From: Janibacter indicus
GTDB lineage: Bacteria > Actinomycetota > Actinomycetes > Actinomycetales > Dermatophilaceae
Direction: 5' to 3'
DNA length: 64,000 bases
Assembly: GCF_900176385.1 (NCBI RefSeq)
Contig: NZ_FWXN01000005.1
Location: 124,001 to 188,000, forward strand
The notes under the pieces were generated by a model, which saw only the letters and a list, made by a program, of their open reading frames with translations, did no database searches and was not told the origin of the DNA. Below are positions 22,084 through 38,330 of this stretch, piece after piece (the stretch's first letter is position 1; every line of letters starts with the position of its first letter). Both the position numbers and the translations under genes were made by a program.

Positions 22084-22959
22084 ATGAGCGACGAGGCGCA
22101 GCTGGCGCGGGACTTCGATGCAGAGCGAGCTCGCCTGACGGCGCTCGCGCAGCGGATGCTCGGGTCAAACGCGGAGGCGGAGGACGCAGTGCAGGAGGCG
22201 TGGCTGCGCCTCAGTCGGCAGGCGGCCGGCACGGTGGACAACGTCGCCGGGTGGCTGACGACGGTCGTAGGCCGGATCTGTCTGGACGTGCTGCGCTCAC
22301 GGCGGAACCACCCGCAGGCGAGCCTAGACGAGCGGCTGCCGGAGCTCGTCGTGACCGAGGACGAAGGGGGTCCCGAGGACTCCGCGGTCGTCGCCGACTC
22401 CGTGGGGCTCGCCCTGCTCGTCGTGCTCGACACGCTCGGTCCGGACGAACGCCTGGCCTTCGTGCTGCACGACATGTTTGCCGTGCCCTTCGCGGAGATC
22501 GGCCCGATCGTGGGGCGCTCCCCCGATGCCGCGAAGATGCTCGCCAGCCGCGCGCGGCGCAAGGTGCAGGGCGCTCCTGTGACGGGCGAAGGGAGGGCCC
22601 GCCAGCGCGAGGTCGTCGACGCCTTCGTCGCGGCGGCACGCGAAGGGGACTTCGAGCGACTCCTGGAGCTGCTCGACCCGGACATCCAGTGGCAGACCCA
22701 CCACCCGCACGGTCGGGTCGTGCGCCTGGGCCGCACCGAGATCGTGGCCGCCGCCGACCGTGGCCTGCGCGCCACCGGTGTCGTCCGCCGGGTGCTCGTC
22801 AACGGCGAGCCCGGCATCCTCACCTGGTCCCGCTCCGGCAAGCCGCTCGGCCTCATGGCGTGCACCGTCTCCGGTGGGCGGATCACCGAGGTGGTGGCGG
22901 TCCTGGACCCGACACGGCTCGCCTCGATGGACCTGCCCAGCCCCCACGGCCCTACCTGA
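22084..22959 (+). CDS. sigJ: ECF sigma factor of the SigJ/ECF41 type with SnoaL-like C-terminus
   Basis: 291 residues. Sigma region 2 (ALAQRMLGSNAEAEDAVQEA, WLRLSR) and region 4 (LAFVLHDMFAVPFAEIGPIV, GRSPDAAKMLASRARRKVQG) are joined to a C-terminal NTF2/SnoaL-like domain (VVDAFVAAAREGDFERLLEL). That domain regulates the sigma factor in place of an anti-sigma factor. It probably drives the divergent doxX-like gene. Its last 8 bp overlap the convergent serpin-like gene. Confidence 0.9.
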   Translation: MSDEAQLARDFDAERARLTALAQRMLGSNAEAEDAVQEAWLRLSRQAAGTVDNVAGWLTTVVGRICLDVLRSRRNHPQASLDERLPELVVTEDEGGPEDSAVVADSVGLALLVVLDTLGPDERLAFVLHDMFAVPFAEIGPIVGRSPDAAKMLASRARRKVQGAPVTGEGRARQREVVDAFVAAAREGDFERLLELLDPDIQWQTHHPHGRVVRLGRTEIVAAADRGLRATGVVRRVLVNGEPGILTWSRSGKPLGLMACTVSGGRITEVVAVLDPTRLASMDLPSPHGPT

Positions 22960-24412
22960 TCTCGCCGCGCTGCCGCATCTGCGCCTCCTTGTAGGCCGAC
23001 AGGGCGGCCGCCTCGTCGGGGTCAGTCTCGGCGAGCAGCTCGAGCGCTTCCCCGTCGGAGTCCATGTAGTTGGGCCCGGAGACCCACGCGCTGACGAGCG
23101 GCACGCCCTCCCACGCACCGCCGCGCGCAACGGCGACGACGGCGTGCGACCCGCGCAGGTCGAGGTCGACGCGCCGCACCCGCGCCTTGACGAACTCCGG
23201 CGCAGAACCGACCCGGGCCATCGCCGTCACCGCAGCAGCCTTGAACCCGTCGGCGTCGAACTCGGCGCGCACGACCTGTCGGCAGTCGGTCGCAGCGGCC
23301 GGCTCCTCGGGCGTCAGCGCCGAACCCACCTGTGCGACACCGGGCGCCGCGCCCAGGTCTATGGAGTCTTGGGCAGACCACACGGGAAGTCGACTGGTCC
23401 AGAGTTGCGGTTGACCCTCCGCATCCGTCGGCAGCCGTTGCAACTCGCTCGCCAGGAGATCCCGGCGAACGGTCGCGGCCCGCCACGAGTGACCGCGCTC
23501 CGGCAGACCGTCAGCGATCTCGGCGTGCCAGAGCGCCCCGTCGTCGAGCATGGCGACGACTTCGTCGACGGCCTGCCACACCTGCGAAGGGGGCACCCTC
23601 GGGTGAGCGCGGACGCTCACCACGTCGATGCCGTCCTCGGACTGTGGCTTGGCGACGACGACGGGTCCGGCGGCGGTGGTCTCGACGATCGTCTGCAGAC
23701 CACCGTGGAGCTTGAGCACTCGGCTGCCGTCCGTCACGAGGCTCTCGGTCCAGCGCGGCTCGAGGACGAGCGCAGTGGCGAGGACGACTCGGGTCAGCTC
23801 GTCGACCTGCAGAGGGAAGGAATCGATCAGTCCGTGGGTGTGCTGCGAGGCCCATGCGTCGAGCGCCATCTGGTCAGGGACGGGGCGCTCCACATCGACG
23901 GGGGTCGTGACGTCATCGGCAGCCCACGCACCCACTGCCGCGGCGAGGGTGGGGTGCGGCTCCGCGAGCAGCCGCCGTGCCACTGCGCTCGCCTCGTCGG
24001 CCGGTATCCCGAGCGTCTGCTCGAGAGTCACGCGATCGTCACCGGTGACGTGCTCGGCGACAGTGGCCAGGAGCAGCCAGAGCCCGGCGTGGGAGACGAC
24101 CGGCGCGATTGCTTGGTCAAGCTCCTCGCGGCAGCGGGCCGCGTACTGCGTAACGGCTCGAGCAACGGTGCGGTCAGGTGCCGGCACCGGCGTGAAGTCG
24201 CCGGGACTCCCTTCGACCTCGTCGCGCTGACCGCAGGTCAGGCACTCGACCCTCCACACCCCGGGGACGATCAGGCAGCCACTCAGGCGTTCCCACGGCG
24301 TGGCCGCCACCTGCTCCGCCGTCTCGGCAGTGGGCATCCCCATGACGCGGTGGTGGGTGGCGTGGGACCCGCAGCGGTCGCAGCGCAACCGGCTGGCTGG
24401 GACTTCGCTCAT
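22952..24412 (-). CDS. Zinc-ribbon serpin-like protein
   Basis: 486 residues. The N-terminus has two CxxC knuckles (LRCDRCGSH and VECLTCGQ), a zinc-ribbon-like module. A divergent serpin-like body follows: HAGLWLLLATVAEH near residue 110, LDAWASQHTHGLIDSFPL near 200, then ELTRVVLATALVLEPRWTES. A hinge-like sequence, DGFKAAAVTAMARVGSAP, is near 388-405, and late strands read AWEGVPLVSAWVSGP. Serpins trap serine or cysteine proteases through a reactive loop after such a hinge. There is no signal peptide, so it would act inside the cell. It overlaps the upstream TY-chaperone-like gene by 4 bp (ATGA). The serpin assignment is by motif only. Confidence 0.6.
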   Translation of the reverse strand: MSEVPASRLRCDRCGSHATHHRVMGMPTAETAEQVAATPWERLSGCLIVPGVWRVECLTCGQRDEVEGSPGDFTPVPAPDRTVARAVTQYAARCREELDQAIAPVVSHAGLWLLLATVAEHVTGDDRVTLEQTLGIPADEASAVARRLLAEPHPTLAAAVGAWAADDVTTPVDVERPVPDQMALDAWASQHTHGLIDSFPLQVDELTRVVLATALVLEPRWTESLVTDGSRVLKLHGGLQTIVETTAAGPVVVAKPQSEDGIDVVSVRAHPRVPPSQVWQAVDEVVAMLDDGALWHAEIADGLPERGHSWRAATVRRDLLASELQRLPTDAEGQPQLWTSRLPVWSAQDSIDLGAAPGVAQVGSALTPEEPAAATDCRQVVRAEFDADGFKAAAVTAMARVGSAPEFVKARVRRVDLDLRGSHAVVAVARGGAWEGVPLVSAWVSGPNYMDSDGEALELLAETDPDEAAALSAYKEAQMRQRGEIR

Positions 24413-25278
24413 GGCGTCTCCTGTCGGTCACGCGCCTGGGGCAGGAACTCGTCCTCCCAGCCATCGATGATGCTGAAGAGGTGCTCCAGGTGCTCGCGCA
24501 GGTGCTCGGGCACGAAGGGGCTGACCAGCATGTCGACCATGACGAGGAAGTCCTCGTCGTCGAGCACGACGAACTTCAGCGCATGCGTGCACTCGTTGAG
24601 CCGCTGGGCGATCCGGGTGGCCTCATCGAGGTCACGCTCGTGGTGCGGCAGCGTGCAGCACATGCGGATGCGCGGCGCTCGGCTCGACGGCCGCACCAAG
24701 ATCGACGTGTCGTAGAAGTGGACGATGGCGTCACCGTCGTCGGTCGTGTTCACCTCCCCCACGAGAGGGCCAAGGGCGATGGCGACGAGTGCATTGACCT
24801 CCGCCCGACTGGTGGGTCGGGCGCCGTCGGCGAGCAGCGGGCTGGTCTCCCAGGGCTCGCGCGTCGGTGGCGTCAGGACTGCGCTCGGGCTGGTGAGCAG
24901 CGCGGGGTCGACGACGCCGAACCCTTCGCGCAGTGCCGTGATCACGGCCGCGGCCGCCTCGTCGGGTCGCGAGATGTCGTAGTACTTGCCGTAGGTCGGC
25001 TCCTGCCGCGTCGGGCACACCATCCCCAGCCGGCGGACCCTGGCCTGCTGCGCGCGACTCATGCGCCAGGTACGAGCCAACGTCATGTTGGAGGCGACTT
25101 CGACGAGCACCTGCGGCAGGACGACGTTGAGCTCGACGAAGGGAGCGTCCCCCACCTCGTGTGCACTCGTGCGGTCGAGAGAGATCCGGAAGATTTCCCC
25201 CTCGCCAAACCGCTCAATGACCGCCACCAGGCGCTCGTGGAAGTCCCTCCACGCCGCCTCGACCCGCTGATCGAACAT
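24409..25278 (-). CDS. TY-chaperone-like protein (YbjN/type III chaperone fold)
   Basis: 289 residues from ATG 25278, with GGAGGGGAGC just before it. It begins MFDQRVEAAWRDFHERLVAV. Two alpha/beta halves resemble the actinobacterial 'T3SS chaperone and YbjN peptide-binding' proteins: VEVASNMTLARTWRMSRAQQ and, near the end, PFVPEHLREHLEHLFSIIDG. Such folds bind peptides or unfolded partners. It is coupled to the serpin-like gene, so it may be that protein's partner. A similar gene lies at 36736-37527. Confidence 0.55.
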   Translation of the reverse strand: MFDQRVEAAWRDFHERLVAVIERFGEGEIFRISLDRTSAHEVGDAPFVELNVVLPQVLVEVASNMTLARTWRMSRAQQARVRRLGMVCPTRQEPTYGKYYDISRPDEAAAAVITALREGFGVVDPALLTSPSAVLTPPTREPWETSPLLADGARPTSRAEVNALVAIALGPLVGEVNTTDDGDAIVHFYDTSILVRPSSRAPRIRMCCTLPHHERDLDEATRIAQRLNECTHALKFVVLDDEDFLVMVDMLVSPFVPEHLREHLEHLFSIIDGWEDEFLPQARDRQETP

Positions 25279-25399
25279 GCCCCGCTCCCCTCCGTCGACC
25301 TGCTCCACAGCGTAGGTGGGACCACCGACAGCGATCCCTGCTCGACAGGGTCTGACGGGTGACGCTGACGGCCCAACGGGGAGATCAGGCCCTGGATTG

Positions 25400-25960
25400 T
25401 CAGCGCACCATCACGAAGCCGAGCCGCTCCGCAAACTCGCCGTGGTGCTTGCGGATGTACGTCTCTGCGTAGCTGCTCCGCTGGTAGTAGCTGAGCGCGG
25501 AGAAGAGCAGGAGCTCGAAGGCCAAGCACTCCATCCAGTCGACATCCTTCGTGAAACCGGTGATCGCCTTGGCGCCGAGCGCCTTCAGCAGTTCCTGCTG
25601 CTGGTCCTCGTCCGTCAGCACGGAACACGACCCGAAGTGGAGCACCTTCTTCTTCAAGGCTCCTGACGGCAGTTTCTGACCGGTGGACACGAGGTCGATC
25701 GACTTCCGCCCTGTGTACACCTTGCCGGGACTCCCGTGCATGGCGATGTAGCCGATGGTGAAGTCTTCGTGCTGCTTCTGCCCCAGCCTCTTCAGCTGTT
25801 TGTCGAAGTCCTCGGGACTGTTGATCACCACATGGGCATATCGCGCAGCCCCCGCCGCCTGAAGTGCATTGAGCACGGGGGTCACACTGCGCACGTCTCG
25901 GACGCTGGGGGACCACTTCGACTCCATCGCCCAAATTGCCGGCCTCTTCCATCGCGCCAT
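25400..25960 (-). CDS. Caspase/CHAT-like protein (DUF6642-type)
   Basis: 186 residues from ATG 25960, with AGGAG 5 nt upstream. The pattern is that of a small clan CD (caspase-like) fold: a strand then FTIGYIAMHGSPGKVYTG with a His-Gly, and KKKVLHFGSCSVLTDEDQQQ with a Ser-Cys at a strand end, followed by AITGFTKDVDWMECLAFELL. His and Cys would form the dyad. It follows the broken coiled-coil gene by 38 bp on the same strand and precedes the TY-chaperone/serpin pair. Protease activity is inferred, not shown. Confidence 0.6.
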   Translation of the reverse strand: MARWKRPAIWAMESKWSPSVRDVRSVTPVLNALQAAGAARYAHVVINSPEDFDKQLKRLGQKQHEDFTIGYIAMHGSPGKVYTGRKSIDLVSTGQKLPSGALKKKVLHFGSCSVLTDEDQQQELLKALGAKAITGFTKDVDWMECLAFELLLFSALSYYQRSSYAETYIRKHHGEFAERLGFVMVR

Positions 25961-25998
25961 GGCCACTCCTCGTTCGACATCGGGGACACACGGTCAAG

Positions 25999-26777
25999 CT
26001 AGTAGAGCCGCGGGGTGAAACGCCCCATCACGGCCAGCTTGAAGTGGGCCGTCATCGTGGCAGTTCCCGACGGGTCCACGGACGTGGGCACCGGGAAGAT
26101 CCGATCGGCGCCGTGCTGGTTCATCGTCGCCTCGGGCTCGCCGAAGCCATGCTTCCGCGTCGGCACTCCGCGACAGCCCTTGGGAAGCTGCTTCAGGTAG
26201 TGGTCGGCCGAACCTTCGAAGGTTCCGTCAGACCTCACCCGCACGTAGTCAGTCAGCGCGCAACTGGCATCCCAGACGGCCTGGGCCGCCGTACCCAGCG
26301 TGTCCAGCTCCTGCACGTCGGCAACGAGCCCGAGGTCTCCGGTGAACTCGACTCCAGGCAGTTCACTCCAGGCAGTTCACCCGCGACGATGTCAAGGACG
26401 TTCGACGGCCGCGCGCTCCCCTCGACACCCTCCATCGTCTCGAGCTGCGCGAAGGCCGCCTCGTGGTCGCCCTTCTGGCGCAGGCGATCTCGCAGCCACG
26501 CCCCCTGCCTCTCGAGCCGCTCGATCTGGTCGCCCGGGTCCGCCTCCTCGAGCTGAGCGTCCTCGATTAGCTCGGCGGCAGCCCTGGTCTCGTCCTCGAG
26601 GCGCCGGATCTCTTCCTGCTGCTGGTCGACCTTGCGACTGAGCTCCGACAGCGCACCGTCTACCGCGTGCGCTCGCGCAGGAGCCTGACTGCCGACTCGA
26701 TCGGCGACACCGGGTCCACAGTCGTCGGCGAAGGGAAGGCCGCCGGCTGACTGAGTGAGTGAGAACGACGGCCTCAT
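25999..26777 (-). pseudogene. Coiled-coil protein gene broken by a 14-bp tandem duplication
   Basis: The upstream frame encodes a coiled coil (LSELSRKVDQQQEEIRRLED, EADPGDQIERLERQGAWLRD) and then AGELPGV. The coding sense then shifts frame, resuming VQELDTLGTAAQAVWDASCA and ending MTAHFKLAVMGRFTPRLY. Removing one copy of the 14-bp repeat at 26351-26378 restores AGELPGVEFTGDLGLVADVQ across the break. The N-terminus (before about SELSRK) also looks degraded. It lies upstream of the caspase-like gene in the same direction. Confidence 0.75.
26351..26378. repeat. Tandem 14-bp duplication causing a frameshift
   Basis: ACTCCAGGCAGTTC is present twice head to tail. Fourteen is not a multiple of three, which breaks the coiled-coil gene. 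Such slippage is reversible. Confidence 0.9.
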
Positions 26778-26855
26778 TTCTTTCTCGTCGTTGAGTCGCG
26801 TCGATGTCGGTGCGACGCCTTAGGCTCACGCCAACACCACCAACGAAAGGGAGAG

Positions 26856-28829
26856 ATGGCGCCAGTCGGCTTCAACGACAAAGTTGCGTTCGTCTGGAAG
26901 GTCGCCGACAAGTTGCGCGGCACCTTCAAGCAGCACGAGTACGGCTCAGTGATGCTTCCGCTCCTGGTCCTGCGGCGCATGGACTGCGTCCTCGACTCGA
27001 CGCGAGATGACGTCCTTGCCAAGGCCGTCGAGGTCGGGGTGCTCGCGCCGGACGGCAAGACGCTTGGCAAGACCGTGGACGGCGGTATCGACCTCCTGCT
27101 CAAGAAGGCTGCTGGCCACCGCTTCTACAACCTGTCACCGTGGACGTTTTCGTCGATGCTGCACAACGACAAACAGCTGGCGGACCAGTTGACGACGTAC
27201 ATCCGCAGGCTCTCCCCCGACGCCGAGCGAGTCATCGAGGCCTACCACTTCGACGACAAGATCACGAGGATGGACGAGGCAGACATCCTGTACTCGGTCC
27301 TGGCGGACTTCGCAGGGATGGATCTCAGCCCTGACGCCGTGAGCAACGAGGCGATGGGGTACATCTTCGAGGAGCTCCTGCGGAAGTTCTCCGAGATGAG
27401 CAACGAGACGGCTGGTGAGCACTACACGCCGCGCGAGGTCATCGACCTCATGGTCCAGCTTCTGCTGCAGGGCAAGGCCCACGCTGAACTCGTGTCCAAC
27501 CCGAAGCCCGTCCGCACGGTCTACGACCCTGCTGCAGGCACCGGCGGGATGCTCATGGGCGCCGCGCACGGCATCACCCAGACCAACACGGGCGCCATGG
27601 TCAAGGTCTTCGGCCAGGAGCTCAACCCGTCGACTTGGGCCATCGCGCAGTCCGACCTGCTCATGCAGGATTCCGACCCCGACCAGATGGCGTCCGGCAA
27701 CTCCTTGACCCAAGACCACTTCGCCGGCAAGACCTTCGACTTCATCCTTGCCAACCCGCCCTATGGCGTGGACTGGAAGGCCTACGCCCAGCCGATCCAG
27801 GACGAGCACGCGGACAGGGGGTTCCACGGCCGCTTCGGCGCTGGGCTCCCCCGAGTCTCCGACGGGTCGCTGCTCTTCCTCCAGCACATGCTGTCCAAGA
27901 TGAAGACCAACGGTTCCCGCGTCGGCATCGTCCTGTCTGGCTCGCCGCTCTTCTCCGGCGCCGCTGGGTCGGGCGAGTCTGAGATCCGGCGGTGGATCCT
28001 GGAGCAGGACTGGCTCGAGGGCATCGTCGCTCTGCCGGATCAGATGTTCTACAACACCGGTATCTCGACCTACGTGTGGATCCTTACCAACGCCAAAGCG
28101 GATGAAGATCGGGGCATCGTTCGCCTCGTGGACGGGCGTGACTTCGGGACCAAGATGAAGAAGTCCTTGGGCGACAAGCGCAAGGAACTCACGCCCGACG
28201 CCATCAACCAGCTCGCGCAGCTCTACGGAGGCGCGCTGGACGAGTTCGCCGAGCACGACAAGGTTCGCCTCCTTCGCCGCGAGGAGTTCGGCTTCCACCG
28301 GATCACCGTTGAGCGTCCCCTGAGGCGAAGGTGGGAGGTGACTCCTGAGGTCGTCTTGGCCGAGACCTTCACCGCGTTGTCACACCTCGTCGGGCGTCAC
28401 TTCGAGACGGAGAAGGCGCTGCTCGCGGAGGTTGCGGACCTGTCCACCAAGGACAAGAAAGCGTTCGCGAAGGCCTGCGCCATCGCCGACCCTGAGGCGC
28501 CGGTGATCACCAAGAAGGGCCACCCCGAGCCGGACCCCGAACTTCGTGACCAGGAGAACGTGCCGCTGCCCGAGGGCTTTTTCGACCTCGACGAAGCGAG
28601 CCGCCCCGACGTCCTCAAGGCAGAAGCGGAGCGACACCTCGCCGAGGAGATCCACCCGTACGTCCCAGATGCCTGGATCGACCACACCAAGACGAAGGTG
28701 GGTGTGGAGATCCCCTTCACCCGGCAGTTCTACGTCTACACGCCACCACGGCCGGTCGAGGAGATCGCCGCCGAGATCCGCGCGCTCGAAGGGGAGATCC
28801 AGGGCTGGATGAAGGGGCTTGGGCTGTGA
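26856..28829 (+). CDS. hsdM: Type I restriction-modification system, DNA methyltransferase subunit
   Basis: 657 residues. Helical N-terminal domain (FNDKVAFVWKVADKLRGTFK), then the N6-adenine methylase core: motif I DPAAGTGGM near residue 225 and motif IV NPPYG near 300. SAM binds at the first and the target adenine at the second. HsdM pairs with HsdS to methylate the host site. GAAAGGGAGAG stands before ATG 26856. Its stop overlaps the HsdS start (GTGA). Confidence 0.95.
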   Translation: MAPVGFNDKVAFVWKVADKLRGTFKQHEYGSVMLPLLVLRRMDCVLDSTRDDVLAKAVEVGVLAPDGKTLGKTVDGGIDLLLKKAAGHRFYNLSPWTFSSMLHNDKQLADQLTTYIRRLSPDAERVIEAYHFDDKITRMDEADILYSVLADFAGMDLSPDAVSNEAMGYIFEELLRKFSEMSNETAGEHYTPREVIDLMVQLLLQGKAHAELVSNPKPVRTVYDPAAGTGGMLMGAAHGITQTNTGAMVKVFGQELNPSTWAIAQSDLLMQDSDPDQMASGNSLTQDHFAGKTFDFILANPPYGVDWKAYAQPIQDEHADRGFHGRFGAGLPRVSDGSLLFLQHMLSKMKTNGSRVGIVLSGSPLFSGAAGSGESEIRRWILEQDWLEGIVALPDQMFYNTGISTYVWILTNAKADEDRGIVRLVDGRDFGTKMKKSLGDKRKELTPDAINQLAQLYGGALDEFAEHDKVRLLRREEFGFHRITVERPLRRRWEVTPEVVLAETFTALSHLVGRHFETEKALLAEVADLSTKDKKAFAKACAIADPEAPVITKKGHPEPDPELRDQENVPLPEGFFDLDEASRPDVLKAEAERHLAEEIHPYVPDAWIDHTKTKVGVEIPFTRQFYVYTPPRPVEEIAAEIRALEGEIQGWMKGLGL

Positions 28830-30103
28830 GGACCATCCCCATCCGGCATGTTGCAGACGTCTGGACGAGCAGCGTCGACAAGCACACAGTCGAGGGCGAA
28901 CTCCCAGTCCAACTGTGCAACTACACCGACGCCTACAAGAAGGACCGGGTCCGGCCCGGCCCCGACCTCATGAAAGCAACCGCGACGCCCGAGGAGATCT
29001 CGCGAAACAGGCTCAAAGTCGGCGACTCTGTCTTCACGAAGGACTCGGAGGATCCGCGAGACATCGGCATCTCGGCGTTTGTTGACGAAGAGGCCGATGA
29101 CTTCGTCTGCGGATATCACTTGGCGATCGCTCGTCCCCACGCCGAAACGCACCCCCGGTTCCTTAATTGGTCGCTTCGCAGTCGACCCGTTTTGGAGCAC
29201 TTCGGGAACCACGCGGCAGGAATCTCGCGGTATGGCATCGGGCTCAGTGACCTGCGGTCGGCCCCAATTCCACTGGTGGCGAATCACGAGCAGCGGCGGA
29301 TCGCCGACTTCCTCGACGACCGCGTCTCCCGAGTCGACCGGATCATCACCGCACGCCGCGAACAACTGAGCCAGTTGTCTGAGTCCGCTGCTCGGCGATC
29401 CTACGACGCCGTCAGGGGGGCGAACACCTCAACCGACTTTCGTGAGAGCGGACTGCCTTGGCTGGGTTCAATTCCTGCTTCTTGGCCGGTGCTAAGCGTC
29501 GGTAGTCAGTTCTCCGTCGAACTGGGAAAGATGCTCGACGATAAGCGGCAGACCGGAGCTCACGCTCTGCCCTACCTGCGAAACACTAACGTCCAATGGG
29601 ACTCCATCTCGGTCAATGACCTGAAGACAATGGACATCCCGCTGACCGAGTACCCCAGATACACCGTGAAGCCCGGTGATCTGCTGATCTGCGAGGGCGG
29701 CCAACCCGGCCGCAGCGCGATCTGGAACGGCGACATCTCGCCGCTAGGCTTTCAGAAGGCCCTGCACCGCGCCCGTTCCCGCGGTCGCAGCCTGCCCAGT
29801 TGGCTGCTGGAATGCTTGCGCGTGGCCGCAAACCTAGACGTCTTCGCCAGTGGCTCAGGCCAGACGACGATCGCGCACTTGACTAATGAGCAGTTGCGCC
29901 AGCAGCGCTTTCCGTTTCCAGATCCAGCAGTGCAGGAGGATCTGCTGAGTCGGCTGGCGGCGCACCGGCATCGGATCGCATCCACCATCTCTGCACTTCA
30001 CCGGTCAATTGATCTGCTGACCGAATGCAAGTCGTCTCTTATCAGCGCTGCCGTGACCGGCGAGCTCGACGTAACCACTGCAGGCTCAAACATCCCGGGG
30101 TGA
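28826..30103 (+). CDS. hsdS: Type I restriction-modification system, specificity subunit
   Basis: 425 residues from GTG 28826. Two target-recognition domains are each followed by a conserved helix (EQRRIADFLDDRVSRVDRII near residue 155; VQEDLLSRLAAHRHRIASTI near 370), the usual HsdS layout. The first domain looks shortened, beginning almost at the N-terminus. Lower GC in the second recognition domain fits exchange of domains by recombination. The recognised sequence cannot be read from this protein. Confidence 0.9.
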   Translation: MRTIPIRHVADVWTSSVDKHTVEGELPVQLCNYTDAYKKDRVRPGPDLMKATATPEEISRNRLKVGDSVFTKDSEDPRDIGISAFVDEEADDFVCGYHLAIARPHAETHPRFLNWSLRSRPVLEHFGNHAAGISRYGIGLSDLRSAPIPLVANHEQRRIADFLDDRVSRVDRIITARREQLSQLSESAARRSYDAVRGANTSTDFRESGLPWLGSIPASWPVLSVGSQFSVELGKMLDDKRQTGAHALPYLRNTNVQWDSISVNDLKTMDIPLTEYPRYTVKPGDLLICEGGQPGRSAIWNGDISPLGFQKALHRARSRGRSLPSWLLECLRVAANLDVFASGSGQTTIAHLTNEQLRQQRFPFPDPAVQEDLLSRLAAHRHRIASTISALHRSIDLLTECKSSLISAAVTGELDVTTAGSNIPG

Positions 30104-30106
30104 CTC

Positions 30107-33094
30107 ATGGCCAACACGACCGAAGCAACCTTCGAGGCCAACATCGAGGCCCACCTAACCAGTCATGGGTGGTCGGCCCTGGCTCCAAAGACCTACGACC
30201 GCGACCTTGGTCTTTTCCCCGACGAGCTGATCGCCTACGTTCAGGCATCGCAGCCGCAGGCTTGGGACAAGCTCGTGAAGCACCACGGCGGGGAGAGCAA
30301 CGCCAAGTACAAGTTCGTGGCCGCCGCCGCCAAGGCCATCGACCACCAGGGCACGAGCGCCGCCCTTCGTGGGTGGATCAAGGACACGGGCGTGAAGGTC
30401 CGCCTCTGCTCCTTCAATCCAGCGCACTCCCTCAGCCCTGAGCTCACGCACGCCTATGAGTCGAACCGGACCGCAGTGGTTCGGCAACTTCACCACTCTG
30501 AGTCCAACACGCACGACTCGCTGGACCTCGTCCTCGTCGTCAACGGCATCCCCGTGGCGACCGCCGAGCTCAAGAACCAGTTCACAGGTCAAGGCGTCGA
30601 GCACGCGATGGCCCAGTACCGGGCCGACCGCAACCCGCACGACAAGATCTTCGCCCAGCGAACGCTCGTGCACTTCGCCGTCGACCCCCATCAGGTCACC
30701 ATGACGACGAGACTCGCGGGCGACGCCACCCGGTTCCTTCCCTTCAACCAGGGCAGCGCGGGCCCCGGACGCTCCGGCACCGCCGGCAACCCGCCGAGCC
30801 CGGGCTACCAGACGGCATACCTCTGGGAGGACGTCTGGCAGCGAGACGCATGGCTGCAGATGCTCGAGACCTTCATCCATGTCGAGGGTGGCCGAGTCCT
30901 GTTCCCCCGCTTCCACCAGTGGCACGCCGTGCGTTCCCTGCTCACCGCGACCCGCGCAGACGGAGTGGGCGTCGACCGACTGATCCAACACTCTGCCGGC
31001 TCGGGCAAGTCCAACACCATCGCGTGGACCGCACACTCCCTCTCACGACTGCACGGCGAAGACGACAAGCCGATCTTCGACAAGGTCGTCGTCATCACCG
31101 ACCGCAAGGTGCTCGACAAGCAGCTCCAGGACACGGTCGCCGGCCTCGACCACACGCCCGGCACGATCGTGCGGATCGACCAGAAGTCCAGTCAGCTGAA
31201 GGACGCCCTGCAGGGCAGTGCCGCCCGCGTCATCATCACGACTCTCCAGAAGTTCCCAGTCGTCGCAGACCTGGCCGCCGAAGAGGCAGCCAAGGGCGGG
31301 GCGCAAGGCGTGGCAGGCAAGCACTTCGCGGTCATCGTCGACGAGGCACACTCGTCGACCTCCGGTGACTCCATGTCGAAGCTCAAGCAGGTTTTGGGTA
31401 GCAGTCAGGACGCACTCGCCGAGGCTGAGGCCGCGGAAGCTGCGGCTGAGGCCGAGGCGGACGAGCAAGGCATCCTGCTCACGTCCGCACAGTCGCACGG
31501 CAAGCAGTCCAACCTGTCCTACTTCGCCTTCACCGCGACTCCGAAGCCGAAGACCCTGGAGATCTTCGGACAACTCAACTCCGAAGGCGTCAAGGTACCC
31601 TTCCACACCTACTCGATGCGCCAAGCGATCGACGAGGGGTTCATCCACGATGTCCTGACCAACTACACGACCTACGACGTGTTCTACAAGCTGTCGACAT
31701 CACGGCCTGACAAGGACCCCGAGGTCGATGCTGCGAAGGCCAAGGTGGAGATGGCCCAGTTTGCCTCGTTGCACCCCCACATGATGGAGGCCAAAGCCAA
31801 GATCATCGTCGAGCACTTCCGGGACAAGACCGCCCACAAGATCAACGGCCAAGCCAAGGCCATGGTCGTGACGCGGTCACGGCTCCACGCGATCAAGACG
31901 AAGCAGGCCATCGACGCCTACATCGCCGCACAGGGCTACGACAATGGCCCCCACCCCCTTCGGACGCTCGTGGCATTCAGCGGAACCGTCACGGACGAGG
32001 ACAACGACGTCACCTACACGGAGGCCGGTATCAACGGGTTCCCGGAGAGTCAGTTGCCCAAGGAATTCCACGACAACTACCAGGTCCTGGTCGTCGCGGA
32101 GAAGTACCAGACCGGCTTCAGCGAAGCGCTGCTCCACACGATGTACGTCGACAAGAAGCTTGGAGGGGTCAAGGCGGTCCAGACCTTGTCCCGCCTGAAC
32201 CGAACGACGCCTGGCAAGGACGACACCTTCGTCCTCGACTTTGCCAACAGCGCGGAGGAGATCCAGGAATCGTTCGCCCCCTTCTACGAGACGACCCTCG
32301 CCCAGCCGACCGACCCAAACGTGCTGCATACCATGGAGATCGACATCAAGTCAGCTCCTGTCTTCGCCCACGAAGAGATGATGGCCGCCGTTACCGCCCT
32401 CCTGAGCGGTGACCCAGCACAGCAGCCCGTGATCTACACAAACGTCGCCCCCGCCGTTGGTCGCTACCTCAATCTCGATGAGGTCGAGCAGGACTGCTAC
32501 CGGAGCAAGGTCGCCCAGTTCTGCCGCATGTACTCCTTCATGTCCCAGGTGATCCAGTGGCACGATCCGGAGCTCGAGCTGCTCTTCCTCTTCGGGAAGC
32601 TGTTTCTCGCAGACCTTCCGAAATCAACACAGGATCCGATGCCGCAGATCAGCAAGCTTGTGCAGCTCACGCATCTGGCGCTCCGGCAAAACTCAAGCGG
32701 TGCCATCACGCTCAAGGCCACGGAGGAACCGGGCGTCGCCCTTCCTGGTCAGGGCAAGGGCTCGTCTTCCGAGCCGCTGATGGACCGGCTTTCGGCGCTC
32801 GTCGCGGCGATGAACGAAAAGTTCGGCATCTCTCTGGACAGCAGCGATATCAAGTGGATCGACCAGCAGTGGAACACGGTGCTTGGCGACGTCGAACTGG
32901 CGACCGTCGCCAAGCACAACGACCGCAGTCAGTTCGACCTGGTGCTCGAGGAGAAGGTCGACGATCTCGTGCTTGATCGGCACGCGAAGAACGGCGAGCT
33001 GTTCAACCAGTTCTTCGGCAACCCCGAGTTCAAGAAGATGCTGCTCAGCCACCTGAGCAGCACTTACAACGAGTTCAGGAAGCAGTCCGCCTAG
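30107..33094 (+). CDS. hsdR: Type I restriction-modification system, endonuclease/translocase subunit
   Basis: 995 residues. The nuclease motif DLVLVVNGIPVATAELKNQF near 140-155 supplies the PD-(D/E)xK residues. The helicase-like motor shows Walker A SAGSGKSN near 295, VDEAHSS near 410, FTATPKPKT and QTLSRLNRT. It translocates and cleaves DNA unmethylated at the HsdS site. It starts 3 bp after hsdS, so hsdMSR forms one operon. All catalytic motifs are intact. Confidence 0.95.
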   Translation: MANTTEATFEANIEAHLTSHGWSALAPKTYDRDLGLFPDELIAYVQASQPQAWDKLVKHHGGESNAKYKFVAAAAKAIDHQGTSAALRGWIKDTGVKVRLCSFNPAHSLSPELTHAYESNRTAVVRQLHHSESNTHDSLDLVLVVNGIPVATAELKNQFTGQGVEHAMAQYRADRNPHDKIFAQRTLVHFAVDPHQVTMTTRLAGDATRFLPFNQGSAGPGRSGTAGNPPSPGYQTAYLWEDVWQRDAWLQMLETFIHVEGGRVLFPRFHQWHAVRSLLTATRADGVGVDRLIQHSAGSGKSNTIAWTAHSLSRLHGEDDKPIFDKVVVITDRKVLDKQLQDTVAGLDHTPGTIVRIDQKSSQLKDALQGSAARVIITTLQKFPVVADLAAEEAAKGGAQGVAGKHFAVIVDEAHSSTSGDSMSKLKQVLGSSQDALAEAEAAEAAAEAEADEQGILLTSAQSHGKQSNLSYFAFTATPKPKTLEIFGQLNSEGVKVPFHTYSMRQAIDEGFIHDVLTNYTTYDVFYKLSTSRPDKDPEVDAAKAKVEMAQFASLHPHMMEAKAKIIVEHFRDKTAHKINGQAKAMVVTRSRLHAIKTKQAIDAYIAAQGYDNGPHPLRTLVAFSGTVTDEDNDVTYTEAGINGFPESQLPKEFHDNYQVLVVAEKYQTGFSEALLHTMYVDKKLGGVKAVQTLSRLNRTTPGKDDTFVLDFANSAEEIQESFAPFYETTLAQPTDPNVLHTMEIDIKSAPVFAHEEMMAAVTALLSGDPAQQPVIYTNVAPAVGRYLNLDEVEQDCYRSKVAQFCRMYSFMSQVIQWHDPELELLFLFGKLFLADLPKSTQDPMPQISKLVQLTHLALRQNSSGAITLKATEEPGVALPGQGKGSSSEPLMDRLSALVAAMNEKFGISLDSSDIKWIDQQWNTVLGDVELATVAKHNDRSQFDLVLEEKVDDLVLDRHAKNGELFNQFFGNPEFKKMLLSHLSSTYNEFRKQSA

Positions 33095-33164: not shown

Positions 33165-35054
33165 ATGGAAGCGAAGACCTACCCGCTGCAGGACATTCTG
33201 AAGCCCGAGCGCAGGTACATCATTCCTACGTTTCAGCGAGACTACGAGTGGACACTTGAAGGGCAGTGGAGGCTTCTCTTCGAAGACTTGGCCTCCACGA
33301 GTGATCGGCTTCTGGAGGTCCGCAACAGCGGCCTGGAGGGTGTGCACCTCAAGACCAAGGAAAAGTCCATCTCGCCGCACTTCTTGGGTGCAATTGTCTG
33401 CGCGAGTCTTCCCTTCGCGACCGGCGGAGTGGCGCTCCGGTCCGTGATCGATGGGCAACAACGGTTGACCACCCTTCAACTGTTGATCCGCGGACTGTTG
33501 GACGCCCTGGTCGAGCAGGGTTCCGACCGTGCCAAGGCAGTGCGTCGAATGCTGCGCAACCCCATGGACGTCGTCGAAGCAGACGAAGAGGTCTACAAGC
33601 TGTGGCCCCGCCGCAAGGATCGCGAGTTCTGGCCGCTCGTGATGTCCGAGACTCTGCCCGACGACCCGGCCGGCTCGGACAACCACGCCTATCTGCAAGC
33701 GCGTGCATTCTTCGCAGAAGCCGCGAGAGAGTACGCGAAGGATGAACACGGCGAAGTGCGGGCCGACCGTCTCATCAGTCTGGCGGACACCCTCTCCAGC
33801 CTCTTCATGCTCGTCGTCATCGACCTTGATGACCAAGATGACGCCCAAGTCATCTTTGAGGTGCTCAACGGGCGACAGACCAAGCTTTCGGCGATCGACC
33901 TCGTCAAGAACCTCCTCTTCCTGCGCGCCGAGGTGAACGAGGACGACGTTGAGGCTCTTTATGACGAACACTGGGCGCAGTTCGATGACCCCTGGTGGAA
34001 GCAAACTGTAGGACGTGGTCACGCTGCGCGTGGGCACCGGGACGTCCTGCTGTCCGTGTGGCTCACAGCAGCTCTTGGCGAAGAGGCCAACGTCAGTCAC
34101 CTCTACCGGGAAACCCGGAGGTACCTCGACGATGGGCCCTCCACACAGGAAGTTCTGCAAGAGCTAAGCCGCTACTCCGTCGCCTACCGTACAATCTACG
34201 GAGAGCTGCCCATCGCCGACGCGCGGCTTGCGGTGGCCTATCGACGCATCCGCTCTCTCGACATCACAACGGCAATCCCAGTCCTGACATGGCTGGCGAC
34301 ACTGGACGACCAGACGCTACCCCTCCCGCATCACGTTCGCGCAGTGCGCGCAGTCGAGTCCTGGGCGCTGCGTCGCGCGTACGTTGGCTGGCAGACCCGC
34401 GGCTACGGCGCGCACCTGGCCAAGGTGCTCCGGTCCGGCAAGGTGGCCCAAGCGGAGGGCTCCAACATCGCGAACGCGGTCATCCAGGCCCTCGGCTCCG
34501 GTGCGCTCGCGTGGCCCGACGACGCACAGGTTCGTGATGCGTTCCAGCATCGGCAGTTCTACGGCAACGTGTCGCAACTGCGAATCCGCCTACTGCTCGG
34601 CGCAATCGACGAGCAGCTCCGCTCCGAGAATTCGCATGAACCCGCCGCAGTGATCGAGTACGACAATCTCCAGATCGAGCACGTGCTGCCGCAGAGTTGG
34701 GTCAGTCACTGGCCCCTCTACTCCCCCGAAGGCCCACAGCTCGCCCAAGACAAGGATGACCCCGTGTGGCTCAAGCACAGTCAAGAGCGAGACCTTGCCC
34801 TAAACCGCATCGGCAACCTCACACTGGTGACGGGCACCTTCAACCGAGAGGCCTCCAACAAGGCCTGGGACGTTAAGAGGCCAGAGTTTGCCAAGCAAAA
34901 GACACTGGTCATCAACCATGACGTGGCCTCTAGCGAGGTCTGGGACGAGCAGCACATGAAGGAGCGCGCTGGGCACCTAGCCGATGTCGTCATCCGCATC
35001 TGGCCAGACGCAGAGCGCCTCTCCGTCCACGGTGACTGGGGGTCCGGGACCTGA
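33165..35054 (+). CDS. GmrSD-type (DUF262-DUF1524) type IV restriction enzyme
   Basis: 629 residues. The N-terminal DUF262 domain has IIPTFQRDYEW near residue 20 and VIDGQQRLTTLQLL near 95, thought to drive nucleotide-dependent action. The C-terminal DUF1524 HNH nuclease has IEHVLPQSW near 504 and NRIGNLTLVTGTFNREASNK near 548. GmrSD enzymes cut DNA with modified cytosines. It follows hsdR by 70 bp in the same direction, complementing the type I system, which acts on unmodified DNA. Confidence 0.9.
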   Translation: MEAKTYPLQDILKPERRYIIPTFQRDYEWTLEGQWRLLFEDLASTSDRLLEVRNSGLEGVHLKTKEKSISPHFLGAIVCASLPFATGGVALRSVIDGQQRLTTLQLLIRGLLDALVEQGSDRAKAVRRMLRNPMDVVEADEEVYKLWPRRKDREFWPLVMSETLPDDPAGSDNHAYLQARAFFAEAAREYAKDEHGEVRADRLISLADTLSSLFMLVVIDLDDQDDAQVIFEVLNGRQTKLSAIDLVKNLLFLRAEVNEDDVEALYDEHWAQFDDPWWKQTVGRGHAARGHRDVLLSVWLTAALGEEANVSHLYRETRRYLDDGPSTQEVLQELSRYSVAYRTIYGELPIADARLAVAYRRIRSLDITTAIPVLTWLATLDDQTLPLPHHVRAVRAVESWALRRAYVGWQTRGYGAHLAKVLRSGKVAQAEGSNIANAVIQALGSGALAWPDDAQVRDAFQHRQFYGNVSQLRIRLLLGAIDEQLRSENSHEPAAVIEYDNLQIEHVLPQSWVSHWPLYSPEGPQLAQDKDDPVWLKHSQERDLALNRIGNLTLVTGTFNREASNKAWDVKRPEFAKQKTLVINHDVASSEVWDEQHMKERAGHLADVVIRIWPDAERLSVHGDWGSGT

Positions 35055-35158: not shown

Positions 35159-36736
35159 TCACCGTCGGCCAATGCCCCCAGCCGAAGAAAGGGCCAGCGC
35201 GGCCCGGAACCCACGGTTGGGGTGAGCGTCCGGCAGTGCCGACACAACCCCCTTCGTCGCGGTGTCGAGGTCCACGCCGCCGATCATGGCGTACGCGATG
35301 CCCACCGTGGGGGTTCGGGACTGGGCGGCCACGCAGTGGACGAGGACCTGGTGGCCTTCGGCCCGAAGGGAGGCCACCGTCCGGGCTGCGTCGGTGAGGA
35401 CGAAGTCGAGGTTGGGGTTGGCCTCGGGTTGCGGCTCGTCGATGAGGCGGAAGGGCACCTGTGCCACGCCCGCCGGCACCTGCTCCGAGCCGGTGAGGCA
35501 GAGGCTGACCACGGCGGTGATCTCCTCCGGCAGTTCGTCGAGCGCCAGCACGTTGCCGAGCCAGACGCCCTCGTCGCAGGGGTGCCGCACAAGGACCGGA
35601 CGGTGCGTCTGGTGGTAGGCGATGCGCTCGACGCCGGGCCAGCCGTAGGCATTGGGCCGACCGCCGCGCGCAGCCAGCGTGGCCGCCTCGACGAGGTCCT
35701 CCGAAGTACGGCCCGGATAGCCGTGGACGATGCGCCGCCACTCGGCCGGGACCGCAGACGCGCCCCATCGCGCACCGAGCAGGCCGCCGGCGATCGCCGC
35801 AACCGTATCGGTGTCATTGCCGATACGGATGGCGGTGTCGAGCGAGTGCTGCAGGTGCAGGCACGGCACGTCATCCGGCACGGGCGTGTGGTGGATCGCC
35901 GACCACGCAGCCTGGAGTGCGGTGACGACGTAGCCGTTGGGGCTGAACGTCGCCGGCTCCCGGGATTCGGCCTCCTCTATGCGCTCGGTCCAGAAGGCCT
36001 GCGCCTCCTCCGACAGGTACGGCAGCCCGACCCGCACATCGAGCTCGCCTTCGAGCACCGCGTGCCGGATGGCGTGCGACCACAGCGCGCACGCCTGCCC
36101 AGCCCGCTCGTCCGTGTGCGTCAGCGCAGAGACCGCCTCCGCAGCGGCCGTGAGCCGCTGCGGGTCGTCGAGGTGCGCCAGCGCGACCGGTGAAGTGCGC
36201 ATCAGCGAGCCGTTGCCGCCGGTGCGGGCGTGGAGGGTGGCTGCGGCTTGGGTCATGCGGGTGCTCAGGTCGCCTGGTTTCGAGGCTCGTCGCAGAGCTC
36301 CTCGCTCCTCAACCAGCGTGGGGTTGACTCCTCGCTCCTCAACCAGCGTGGGGTTGACTCCTCGCTCCTCAACCAGCGTGGGGTTGGCTCCTCGCACCTC
36401 AACCAGCGTGGCGCCCAGGACCTTGCGGGTCTGGGTGCCGATGTCGGGCGGGCCGGAGGCGTACCAGTCGAGGAAGCCCTGGGCGACCTCGTCGAGCGCC
36501 TCCGGGGAGGTGAGGTCCGCCCCCTTCGCCGCGGTGGCGAGGACCGGCCACGTCATGGCCGTGTCGTCGGTCCACTCGCCGGGCGCGAAGTTACCCAGGC
36601 CGCCGCCGATCATCGCCGGACCGTCGGGTCCGACTGCGGCGCAACCGAATTCGTAGCCGGCGCCGAGGGCATCGCCCGTCGCAGAGCCGAGGACGGCACC
36701 GCACGCGCGGTCCGTCTGTGCACTGGTGAGCCGCAT
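35159..36736 (-). CDS. ADP-ribosylglycohydrolase fused to a dual-specificity phosphatase-like domain
   Basis: 525 residues. N-terminal DraG-type ADP-ribosylglycohydrolase: GEWTDDTAM near residue 53 and GNDTDTVAAIAGGLLGA near 310 supply the metal-binding Asp/Thr set. The C-terminal part has VLVHCVAAQSRTP, the HCx5R loop of cysteine phosphatases. Predicted to remove ADP-ribose from proteins or nucleic acids and a phosphate from an unknown target. Residues near 108-147 are repeated VNPTLVEERG encoded by an expanded dispersed repeat. Its ATG shares one base with the stop of the upstream TY-chaperone-like gene (TGATG). Confidence 0.88.
   Translation of the reverse strand: MRLTSAQTDRACGAVLGSATGDALGAGYEFGCAAVGPDGPAMIGGGLGNFAPGEWTDDTAMTWPVLATAAKGADLTSPEALDEVAQGFLDWYASGPPDIGTQTRKVLGATLVEVRGANPTLVEERGVNPTLVEERGVNPTLVEERGALRRASKPGDLSTRMTQAAATLHARTGGNGSLMRTSPVALAHLDDPQRLTAAAEAVSALTHTDERAGQACALWSHAIRHAVLEGELDVRVGLPYLSEEAQAFWTERIEEAESREPATFSPNGYVVTALQAAWSAIHHTPVPDDVPCLHLQHSLDTAIRIGNDTDTVAAIAGGLLGARWGASAVPAEWRRIVHGYPGRTSEDLVEAATLAARGGRPNAYGWPGVERIAYHQTHRPVLVRHPCDEGVWLGNVLALDELPEEITAVVSLCLTGSEQVPAGVAQVPFRLIDEPQPEANPNLDFVLTDAARTVASLRAEGHQVLVHCVAAQSRTPTVGIAYAMIGGVDLDTATKGVVSALPDAHPNRGFRAALALSSAGGIGRR
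36278..36418 (-). repeat. Dispersed repeat A expanded to a 30-bp tandem array inside the glycohydrolase gene
   Basis: After a family A half (TTTCGAGGCTCGTCGC at 36278), the unit starting CTCGCTCCTCAACCAGCGTG is present at 36301, 36331, 36361 and, with changes, 36391. The period is 30 bp, so frame is kept and each unit adds ten residues (VNPTLVEERG). Confidence 0.88.
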
Positions 36737-37527
36737 CAGGCCACCTCTCCCCCGACGCGCAGCGCCAGGTCGTCTCGGGTCTTCATGGCGTTGAGGAAGA
36801 CGGCCATGGTCGTCATCAGGTGGTTCGGGGCGAAGGGCATCGTCTCGACCATCGCGGTCTGCACGATGTCACGACCGATGACCTGCCACCGCACCCACGG
36901 GTTGGAGCGGTTGATGATGCCGACCTCGACCGCCGCCTGGCGCCGCGAGCGCGCCCCGTGGGCGACGCGCGTGTTGATGACAATGACCGACGCATCCCGC
37001 ATCACCTGCACCCAGACCCGCTGGCCGAGGTGCTCGACGAAGAGGTCGTCGTCCTCGTCGCGGAAGACCTCGTAGTCGTCGCTCAGCGCCTCCTCGACGA
37101 TGTCGACCAGCGCCTCCCGGTCGGTCTCGACGTACACCTCGGGGGCCGGGCGCGGCCCCCCCGTCCAGGCCAGCCCGAGGACCGGCGCGAGCTGCGCGCA
37201 GGGCCCCTGGGCCCGGTGCGTCAGCAGCTGCGGGTGCGGCACACCGACGATGTTGCGCAGCAACATGATCGCCCGGTGGACGAGCGGCTCCCGCCCGATC
37301 GCGTGGTTCTCGGTGTACTCGTCGTCACCGACGGTCGCGCAGAGCGCGCCGCCTTGCATGCGGAAGGCCACCACCGGCACCTCCACCCGCTCCCCCACCT
37401 CGAGGACCAGCCGGTCCTGCGGGTAGCCCATCGCCTCGACGAGCGTCAGCAGCCTGCGCTCGAAGGCCTTCCACGCGGCGTTGATCTCCTCGACCCCCGC
37501 CGCCATCTCCTGCTCGGTCATGGCCAT
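36736..37527 (-). CDS. TY-chaperone-like protein, paralogue of 24409-25278
   Basis: About 263 residues. ATG 37527 or 37521 are both possible, with GGGAGGGG upstream. It starts EEINAAWKAFERRLLTLVEA, similar in layout to FDQRVEAAWRDFHERLVAVI of the other copy. The C-terminal half (WVQVMRDASVIVINTRVAHG, then NHLMTTMAVFLNAMKTRDDL) fits the YbjN/type III chaperone fold. It is the first gene of an operon with the ADP-ribosylglycohydrolase fusion and may chaperone it. Confidence 0.55.
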   Translation of the reverse strand: MAMTEQEMAAGVEEINAAWKAFERRLLTLVEAMGYPQDRLVLEVGERVEVPVVAFRMQGGALCATVGDDEYTENHAIGREPLVHRAIMLLRNIVGVPHPQLLTHRAQGPCAQLAPVLGLAWTGGPRPAPEVYVETDREALVDIVEEALSDDYEVFRDEDDDLFVEHLGQRVWVQVMRDASVIVINTRVAHGARSRRQAAVEVGIINRSNPWVRWQVIGRDIVQTAMVETMPFAPNHLMTTMAVFLNAMKTRDDLALRVGGEVA

Positions 37528-37544
37528 CACATCCCCTCCCGTTC

Positions 37545-37595
37545 GATTTAACCCCTTGAACGCGCTAACTATAACACCTCATCCGCGCTAAAGTG
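37545..37595. promoter_or_regulatory. Candidate NrtR-type operator region between divergent genes
   Basis: CGCGCTAA occurs twice, at 37561-37568 and 37584-37591, 23 bp apart (about two helix turns). The stretch between contains AACTATAAC, whose complement GTTATAGT could be the -10 of the minus-strand operon. A NUDIX/NrtR-like gene starts just to the right, and NrtR proteins repress from such intergenic sites. Confidence 0.5.
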
Positions 37596-37601
37596 CACGT
37601 C

Positions 37602-38330
37602 ATGGCTCGCCGCAACCTCGACAGCTACCCCCGCCCCGGTGTCACCGTGGACCTGGCGGTCCTCACAGTCACCGACGCGGGCACCGACGACGCGGTGCTG
37701 CGGGTGCTCGTGCAGGAGCGGACCGACCCTGACGGTCGGGTGCTGCCGGGGCGCTTCCTCCGCGAGCGGCAGACCGTGGTCGACACCGTCCAGGAGGTCT
37801 TCGAGCACAAGGTCGGCGTGCGCCCCAGCGAAGTCACTCCCCCGCGACTGCTGCGGCTCTTCGACGCGCCTGACCGCGACGACCGCACCTGGGCGATCTC
37901 CGTCGCCCACTCCGTGTCCATGCCCGAGGCGGAGCTCGAGGGCGCGACGGGCGACCTGGTCACCGTCTCGTCGGACGGAGCACTCGCCGACGGCGGCCCG
38001 ATGCTGTGGGACCACGACGAAATCGTCTCTGCCGCAGTTGAATCACTGCGTGAGCGCTACGAGTTCCGCTTCCGCAACGACAGCCCGCCGCCGGACCCCG
38101 ACGGCTTCCTGCCCGAGCCCTTCACGCTGCACCAGCTGCGCAAGGTGCACGAGGCGGTCATCGGCGAGGAGCTGCACAAGGACAACTTCGCGCGGCGGAT
38201 GAAGCCTCAGCTCACGCCCGTGATGCGGGGTGGCGATGTGGTGAGGTCCACCGCGCACCGAGGGCGTCCGGCGACTCTGTACTGGCGATTGACCTCGCCC
38301 GGCAATCAGCCGGTCAACACCCGCGGTTAG
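37602..38330 (+). CDS. NUDIX-domain regulator of the NrtR type
   Basis: 242 residues from ATG 37602. N-terminal NUDIX-like domain (VDLAVLTVTDAGTDDAVLRV; LPGRFLRERQTVVDTVQEVF, a degenerate NUDIX box) followed by a winged-helix domain: PFTLHQLRKVHEAVIGEELH, then KDNFARRMKPQLTPV. This is the layout of NrtR, which senses ADP-ribose or related NAD metabolites and represses NAD-linked genes. The canonical box glutamates are largely missing, so it probably binds rather than hydrolyses. It is divergent from an ADP-ribosylglycohydrolase operon. Confidence 0.85.
   Translation: MARRNLDSYPRPGVTVDLAVLTVTDAGTDDAVLRVLVQERTDPDGRVLPGRFLRERQTVVDTVQEVFEHKVGVRPSEVTPPRLLRLFDAPDRDDRTWAISVAHSVSMPEAELEGATGDLVTVSSDGALADGGPMLWDHDEIVSAAVESLRERYEFRFRNDSPPPDPDGFLPEPFTLHQLRKVHEAVIGEELHKDNFARRMKPQLTPVMRGGDVVRSTAHRGRPATLYWRLTSPGNQPVNTRG

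Follow-up and report, generated by a model that had tools for sequence, protein, structure and literature searches.

ADP-ribosylglycohydrolase (ARG)-centric systems are predicted to reverse phage ADP-ribosylation, and the paper concerned (PMC9503650) also named the TY-Chap families and proposed the chaperone idea for them. Bacterial serpins have been described under the names thermopin, tengpin and chloropin (PMC8233489, PMC10090351), and for one of the bacterial serpins an acceleration by DNA has been reported (PMC10090351). Here, we analysed a 64,000-nucleotide stretch of Janibacter indicus DNA ('the window'; contig NZ_FWXN01000005.1, positions 124,001 to 188,000), in which genes for a DUF6642 protein, a TY-Chap protein and a serpin-like protein with an N-terminal zinc ribbon (the zinc-ribbon-serpin) lie in a row, some 10 kb from an ARG gene. 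We give about even credence to the view that the recurring unit is a zinc-ribbon-serpin near ARG-centric systems, to which the window adds the serpin's own TY-Chap and the probably caspase-like DUF6642 protein. Shared with the ARG-centric systems of PMC9503650 are an ARG with a putative phosphatase-like domain, TY-Chap1 and TY-Chap3 domains, an NrtR-type regulator and nearby restriction genes, whereas all three genes of the row go beyond them; by word search, 'serpin' and 'caspase' are absent from the main text of that paper. With thermopin, tengpin and chloropin the window protein shares profile homology and a recognisable hinge region, but unlike them it has an N-terminal zinc ribbon, a Phe at hinge position P14 and a location in a defence island.

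The zinc-ribbon-serpin gene (22952..24412, minus strand) encodes 486 amino acids (aa). An initial annotation, made from the sequence alone, had noticed a serpin-like protein with a hinge, and both features stand: the serpin part covers approximately residues 80-446, with the hinge at G389-F-K-A-A-A-V-T396. The zinc ribbon, which that annotation lacked, occupies the first ∼73 residues (24194..24412, minus strand), and its C11, C14, C57 and C60 are invariant in all five full-length relatives, the window protein counted. Homology of the protein to serpins is firm at the level of sequence profiles, and it is by profile that the serpin fold expected by the initial annotation was supported. The window protein alone matched the Pfam Serpin family, PF00079, at E = 0.0047 (16.6 bits), below the cut-off of 27, but all nine family members matched it at E ≤ 0.1, and the two stand-alone relatives that were scanned exceeded the cut-off (38 and 41 bits versus 27). 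A profile of the nine members matched 109 distinct sequences of solved structures at E ≤ 0.01, of which the 60 listed all carry serpin names; the best match was PAI-1 (2.3e-14), conserpin was matched at 2.8e-12, and the hinge aligned as a second, weaker stretch, at 0.06 in one displayed alignment and at 0.015 in the other. A profile of the five zinc-ribbon-serpins gave 14 solved matches, all PAI-1, over ∼50 residues (best 6.5e-5). Six stand-alone proteins, encoded in other genomes, also matched the serpin part, at 28-46%.

Transcription on the minus strand would run from the DUF6642 gene (25400..25960; 186 aa) through the TY-Chap gene (24409..25278; 289 aa) to the zinc-ribbon-serpin gene. All three open reading frames are intact and co-directional, and they are presumably co-transcribed; a scan of 22800-27000 detected no promoters or terminators. 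Of the four adjacent minus-strand genes proposed initially, these three were retained and the fourth proved to be a broken, unrelated remnant (see below). The corresponding stretch is present in the same-genus genome G286 and in the Janibacter limosus NBRC 16128 record. Between the window and J. limosus, purifying selection is seen on DUF6642 (dN/dS, non-synonymous over synonymous divergence, 0.216/1.35), on TY-Chap (0.248/0.776 for the first 224 codons) and on the zinc-ribbon-serpin (0.245/0.790), with identities of 70%, 66% (first 224 aa) and 68%, respectively. The start of the DUF6642 gene was set by alignment with J. limosus and Pseudactinotalea, and the gap between it and the TY-Chap gene is 121 bp in the window and 110 bp in J. 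limosus.

The TY-Chap protein carries a TY-Chap3 domain (PF22552, E = 2.9e-16, 60.7 bits) and a TY-Chap1 domain (PF22551, E = 8e-15, 55.1 bits), both well over the Pfam cut-off of 27, and starts at an ATG at 25278 behind GGAGGGGAG, a start identical in J. limosus. As initially described, this chaperone-like gene overlaps the putative inhibitor gene by 4 bp (ATGA), and the overlap between TY-Chap and zinc-ribbon genes is common to the window, J. limosus and G190. A TY-Chap gene directly followed by a partner gene occurs twice in the window, as TY-Chap/ARG and TY-Chap/zinc-ribbon-serpin, from which we infer that each TY-Chap acts on the product of the gene that follows it, probably as a chaperone.

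The TY-Chap/ARG pair and the regulator gene beside it lie beyond the restriction genes and had been overlooked. The ARG gene (35159..36736, minus strand; PF03747, 2.2e-45) has a putative C-terminal phosphatase-like domain (PF00782, DSPc, 1.8e-7; 31.4 bits versus a cut-off of 33.5) and is overlapped by 1 bp by the gene for a second TY-Chap1 plus TY-Chap3 protein (36736..37530, minus strand; PF22551 4.4e-17; PF22552 1.2e-5, 26.4 bits versus 27). An NrtR-type regulator gene follows (37593..38330, plus strand; PF21906, 6.6e-13), whose Nudix part was matched in its L127 relative only. With ARG, TY-Chap and an NrtR-type regulator together at 35159-38330, the group qualifies as an ARG-centric system.

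A zinc-ribbon-serpin gene turned up in five genomes. Four are Janibacter, namely that of the window, J. limosus (G286; 68% identical to the window protein), G685 (59%) and G686 (57%); the fifth, G678 (49% over 427 aa), shares their class and belongs to a different order. Zinc ribbons had been sought in the loci of serpin-like-protein matches from a same-order sample and a phylum sample; among second matches without a locus, that of G678 was examined (L128, without zinc ribbon). An ARG gene lies within 11 kb of the zinc-ribbon-serpin gene in four of the five cases and in two orders, at 10.7 kb in the window, 3.2 kb in G678, 5.0 kb in G685 and 3.9 kb in G686, and in all four an NrtR-type gene adjoins the ARG or its TY-Chap. 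The outer flanks differ, being SigJ and DoxX genes in the window, an ABC transporter in G685 and G686, and another again in G678; since the flank common to G685 and G686 is not that of the window, the ARG link is not one inherited locus. Related pieces occur in two further genomes. G190, of the window's family, has an ARG (63%), a TY-Chap (34% over 195 aa) and an NrtR-type gene (65%) at one end of a group and, ∼12 kb away at the other end, a TY-Chap gene overlapping by 4 bp a separate gene for a 76-aa zinc-ribbon relative, with helicase-, methylase- and restriction-like genes in between (named by sequence inspection). G682, another Janibacter, has broken TY-Chap and zinc ribbon pieces, next to restriction-like genes that reach 97% identity with their counterparts in G190. 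As separate observations, a further ARG fragment lies in G686, ∼9.5 kb beyond the first ARG there (L209:16754-17623; 79% identical to the window ARG over 275 aa), and a SIR2-like domain protein (PF13289; L127:10911-12449) adjoins the zinc-ribbon-serpin of G678.

Several observations weigh against linking these proteins in one inhibitory, ARG-associated unit. J. limosus has the gene row, yet no ARG match was found in its genome, and its TY-Chap gene is frameshifted. In G678, G685 and G686, no TY-Chap gene lies directly before the serpin gene. From the ARG side, none of 17 other ARG loci (the top 20 additional places apart from G139, G263 and G120) carries a zinc ribbon, serpin or DUF6642 gene in the stretch fetched, TY-Chap was present in one, 12 kb away, and an NrtR-type gene was present in 10; most of these stretches reach 9-10 kb per side, so a link of the window's length would be missed. 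The linkage may also be island clustering, because islands are rich in defence genes. The zinc-ribbon-serpin is at most an optional accessory of ARG islands. As for the serpin itself, an AlphaFold2 model from two sequences was of no use, with a confidence (predicted local distance difference test, pLDDT) of 31.8; the stretch at ∼298-328 varies more than the reactive loop (30% versus 35% in the lowest 20-column windows); the hinge departs from the inhibitory consensus ExGTEAAAA (PMC8233489), in that P14 is Phe and P9 is Val; and a divergent Streptomyces serpin clade has been suggested to be non-inhibitory (PMC8233489).

The last two points bear on a different explanation, that the serpin is a non-inhibitory binding or scaffold fold and that the zinc-ribbon/TY-Chap unit recognises modified proteins. 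The unusual P14 Phe, the Streptomyces proposal and the zinc ribbon of G190, which stands alone behind its TY-Chap, all agree with it. In the window, P17-P9 reads A-D-G-F-K-A-A-A-V, such that Gly15 and Ala12-10 are kept and Glu17, Thr14, Glu13 and Ala9 are changed, and because of this departure from the consensus we do not file the protein as a canonical inhibitory serpin. The F-x-G motif that precedes the breach Trp is also missing in the window protein. Against a scaffold role, Ala11, Ala10 and Thr8 of the hinge are invariant in all five zinc-ribbon-serpins and the loop is variable, the reactive-loop stretch being 42% identical between the window and J. limosus compared with 68% overall. We regard a non-inhibitory serpin as rather unlikely.

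The initial annotation had predicted a caspase-like cysteine protease from His-Gly and Ser-Cys motifs, and this assignment remains sensible for the DUF6642 protein (PF20347, E = 2.7e-12). Caspase/CHAT-like peptidases (clan CD) have a His-Gly followed by a Cys, and in DUF6642 residues of this catalytic type occur in the expected order, as H75-G76 and C112, invariant in 11 of 11 aligned members (the alignment was made without L036, at a contig end and in two frames, and without the distant L040). Two of three solved-structure matches were caspases, aligned at the His-Gly, although weakly (E = 0.079 and 0.89). Foldseek with a low-confidence DUF6642 model returned nothing significant, a second look at 297 chains scored DdvA and Ssu72 level with CHAT, and hhalign against three CHAT domains gave a probability of 0.2, compared with 0.1 for a serpin-alignment control. 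On its sequence motifs, DUF6642 is probably caspase/CHAT-like and may be an active protease. It differs from the CHAT and caspase-like proteins Csx29 and SAVED-CHAT in being a short, stand-alone protein of a family without described function, and in comparison with them its low-confidence model scored equally high against unrelated folds. A genome scan with a three-sequence alignment matched J. limosus and Pseudactinotalea only. A phage origin of DUF6642 was considered and rejected, with no match in phages or in two viral-contig scans.

Because DUF6642 heads the gene run of the window and that of J. limosus, the serpin could act as its brake in these two. One form of this idea is a dedicated defence pair, in which DUF6642 would be a death protease silenced by the serpin and freed on infection, with TY-Chap as sensor or loader. 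Gene order and similar spacing (the 121/110 bp gap and the 4-bp overlap) are kept in the two Janibacter species, and animal and viral serpins can inhibit caspases. However, DUF6642 precedes the TY-Chap and serpin genes in only these two of the five zinc-ribbon-serpin cases and is not beside the serpin in G678, G685 and G686, the last two checked within the fetched stretches. Among 297 genomes of the same-order sample, DUF6642 occurred in eight, a serpin-like match in 11 and both in two, leaving six of the eight DUF6642 genomes without a serpin-like match; G190 has no DUF6642 match, and G678, which came from the phylum sample searched for serpin-like proteins, is not among the matches in a second sample of equal size. 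These counts reject an obligate pair. A dedicated pair is on balance unlikely, and the protease-inhibitor defence module first proposed keeps its defence setting and loses its exclusive partners, as the pairing does not hold in other genomes outside Janibacter.

The defence setting of DUF6642 is broader than this locus. Six of the eight same-order genomes have it near defence genes: beside type I restriction-modification (RM) in three (the window, J. limosus and, with three GmrSD-like genes in addition, G104), and beside Hma in G277, ZacC in G276 and BREX in G101. No defence gene was recognised by eye near DUF6642 in G066, G029 or three loci outside the order. Defence calls were made by PADLOC for the window, L033, L035 and L036, by BLAST to window genes for L014 and L031, and by eye for L032 and L034. 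Compared with random 20-kb stretches, of which one in 11 had a clear defence cluster, the six in eight for DUF6642 loci gives a Fisher p of 0.006. Counting each of three generic single hits (MzaA, mad3 and Helicase_II, in stretches not located) as one more positive stretch raises the controls to four in 11 and p to 0.17. For these controls, 12 stretches were drawn and 11 used, one overlapping another, two further stretches, L199 and L200, adjoin DUF6642 loci and stayed out, and all 95 proteins with a length of at least 280 aa were scanned; the one positive control stretch (L192) shares its contig with a DUF6642 gene, ∼15 kb off. The variety of these neighbours, which from genome to genome are BREX, Hma, ZacC, type I RM or GmrSD-like genes, and the varying gene content around each member, would also be expected if defence islands had accreted DUF6642, TY-Chap and the serpin as chance neighbours without joint function. 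We consider this distinctly unlikely, given the 4-bp overlap in three genomes, the fusion of zinc ribbon to serpin in five and the proximity to ARG in four of five cases across two orders.

Additional DUF6642 surroundings were seen. The Pseudactinotalea contig holds, in the control stretch L192, genes for a type II restriction enzyme, a methylase and Druantia DruE/DruF (L192:5604-17428). The DUF6642 gene of G104 is the first of three in a run with 4-bp overlaps (L031:7676-9383), the other two encoding 167- and 198-aa proteins without Pfam match; the run sits between the type I RM genes and the three GmrSD-like genes. A Brevibacterium plasmid carries, 1.3 kb from DUF6642, a gene with the annotation 'abortive infection family protein' and without a PADLOC match; in a Pseudomonas plasmid, ∼0.8 kb separates a distant DUF6642 from an ARG gene.

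Under the reading of a zinc-ribbon-serpin accessory to ARG-centric systems, the neighbouring ARG-phosphatase, TY-Chap and NrtR-type regulator would reverse ADP-ribosylation by phages. The TY-Chap of the row would most likely hold its client in a productive state, the client being either the serpin, which as a metastable protein would suit this role naturally, or a peptide ligand. The serpin domain would be expected to use its variable reactive loop to trap a protease, and the zinc ribbon could be a docking part, which may bind nucleic acid or protein. In G678, G685 and G686, the protease would have to be other than DUF6642, unless a distant DUF6642 serves. An antiviral role, and DUF6642 as the target of the serpin, would fit this scheme; in its full form, with a zinc-ribbon-serpin kept ready by the TY-chaperone restraining a caspase-like (or phage) protease in an anti-ADP-ribosylation island, it is a long shot. 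A zinc-ribbon serpin subfamily near ARG, TY-Chap and NrtR genes in two orders points to phage defence and ADP-ribosylation as the place to look, and the DUF6642 family gains a likely caspase-like identity and a genomic setting. If the serpin does trap DUF6642, this would be protease-serpin control inside bacterial immunity, a bacterial counterpart of the serpin control of caspases, and bacterial serpins, described as enigmatic in their role, would gain one inside the cell. A literature word search found no paper on DUF6642, and searches with TY-Chap, serpin, caspase/CHAT, ARG and zinc-ribbon terms found no title or abstract start concerning the cassette, most subscription papers being outside the search; within a 2026 BREX survey (PMC12839542), a word search found none of the cassette names.

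Among the neighbours of the row are hsdM, hsdS and hsdR (26856..33094, plus strand), a type I RM set matched by PADLOC, and a GmrSD-type enzyme gene (33165..35054, plus strand; PADLOC Orf5 and mREase_IV models). Their adjacency to the row had been correctly observed; as in type I RM plus GmrSD islands, they match known models, but they are neighbours and not part of the cassette. The large coiled-coil protein that the initial annotation placed first in the cassette was removed from it. Its gene (25999..26777, minus strand) is a remnant in two pieces and two frames (26253-26777 and 25999-26316). Among the relative loci compared, neither piece has a match outside the window's own genome. The C-terminal piece matches hypothetical proteins on five actinobacterial plasmids (∼570 aa in the two opened), and in both plasmid contexts the cassette is absent. 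The gene is an unrelated broken remnant.

At the other end of the row, the 3' ends of the zinc-ribbon-serpin gene and a convergent SigJ-like gene overlap by 8 bp. In J. limosus, a second, truncated zinc ribbon (L014:9896-10180; 46% identical) lies by the 3' end of the SigJ-like gene, in the place of the intact window gene, so this site seems to turn over cassettes. An ISL3-family transposase reading frame at 20113-21462, ∼0.15 kb from the DoxX-like gene, lies at the island edge. Finally, a DUF6308 protein is encoded in the window at 40750-41466, ∼15 kb from DUF6642, and in Pseudactinotalea two genes before DUF6642 (L035:10394-11146).

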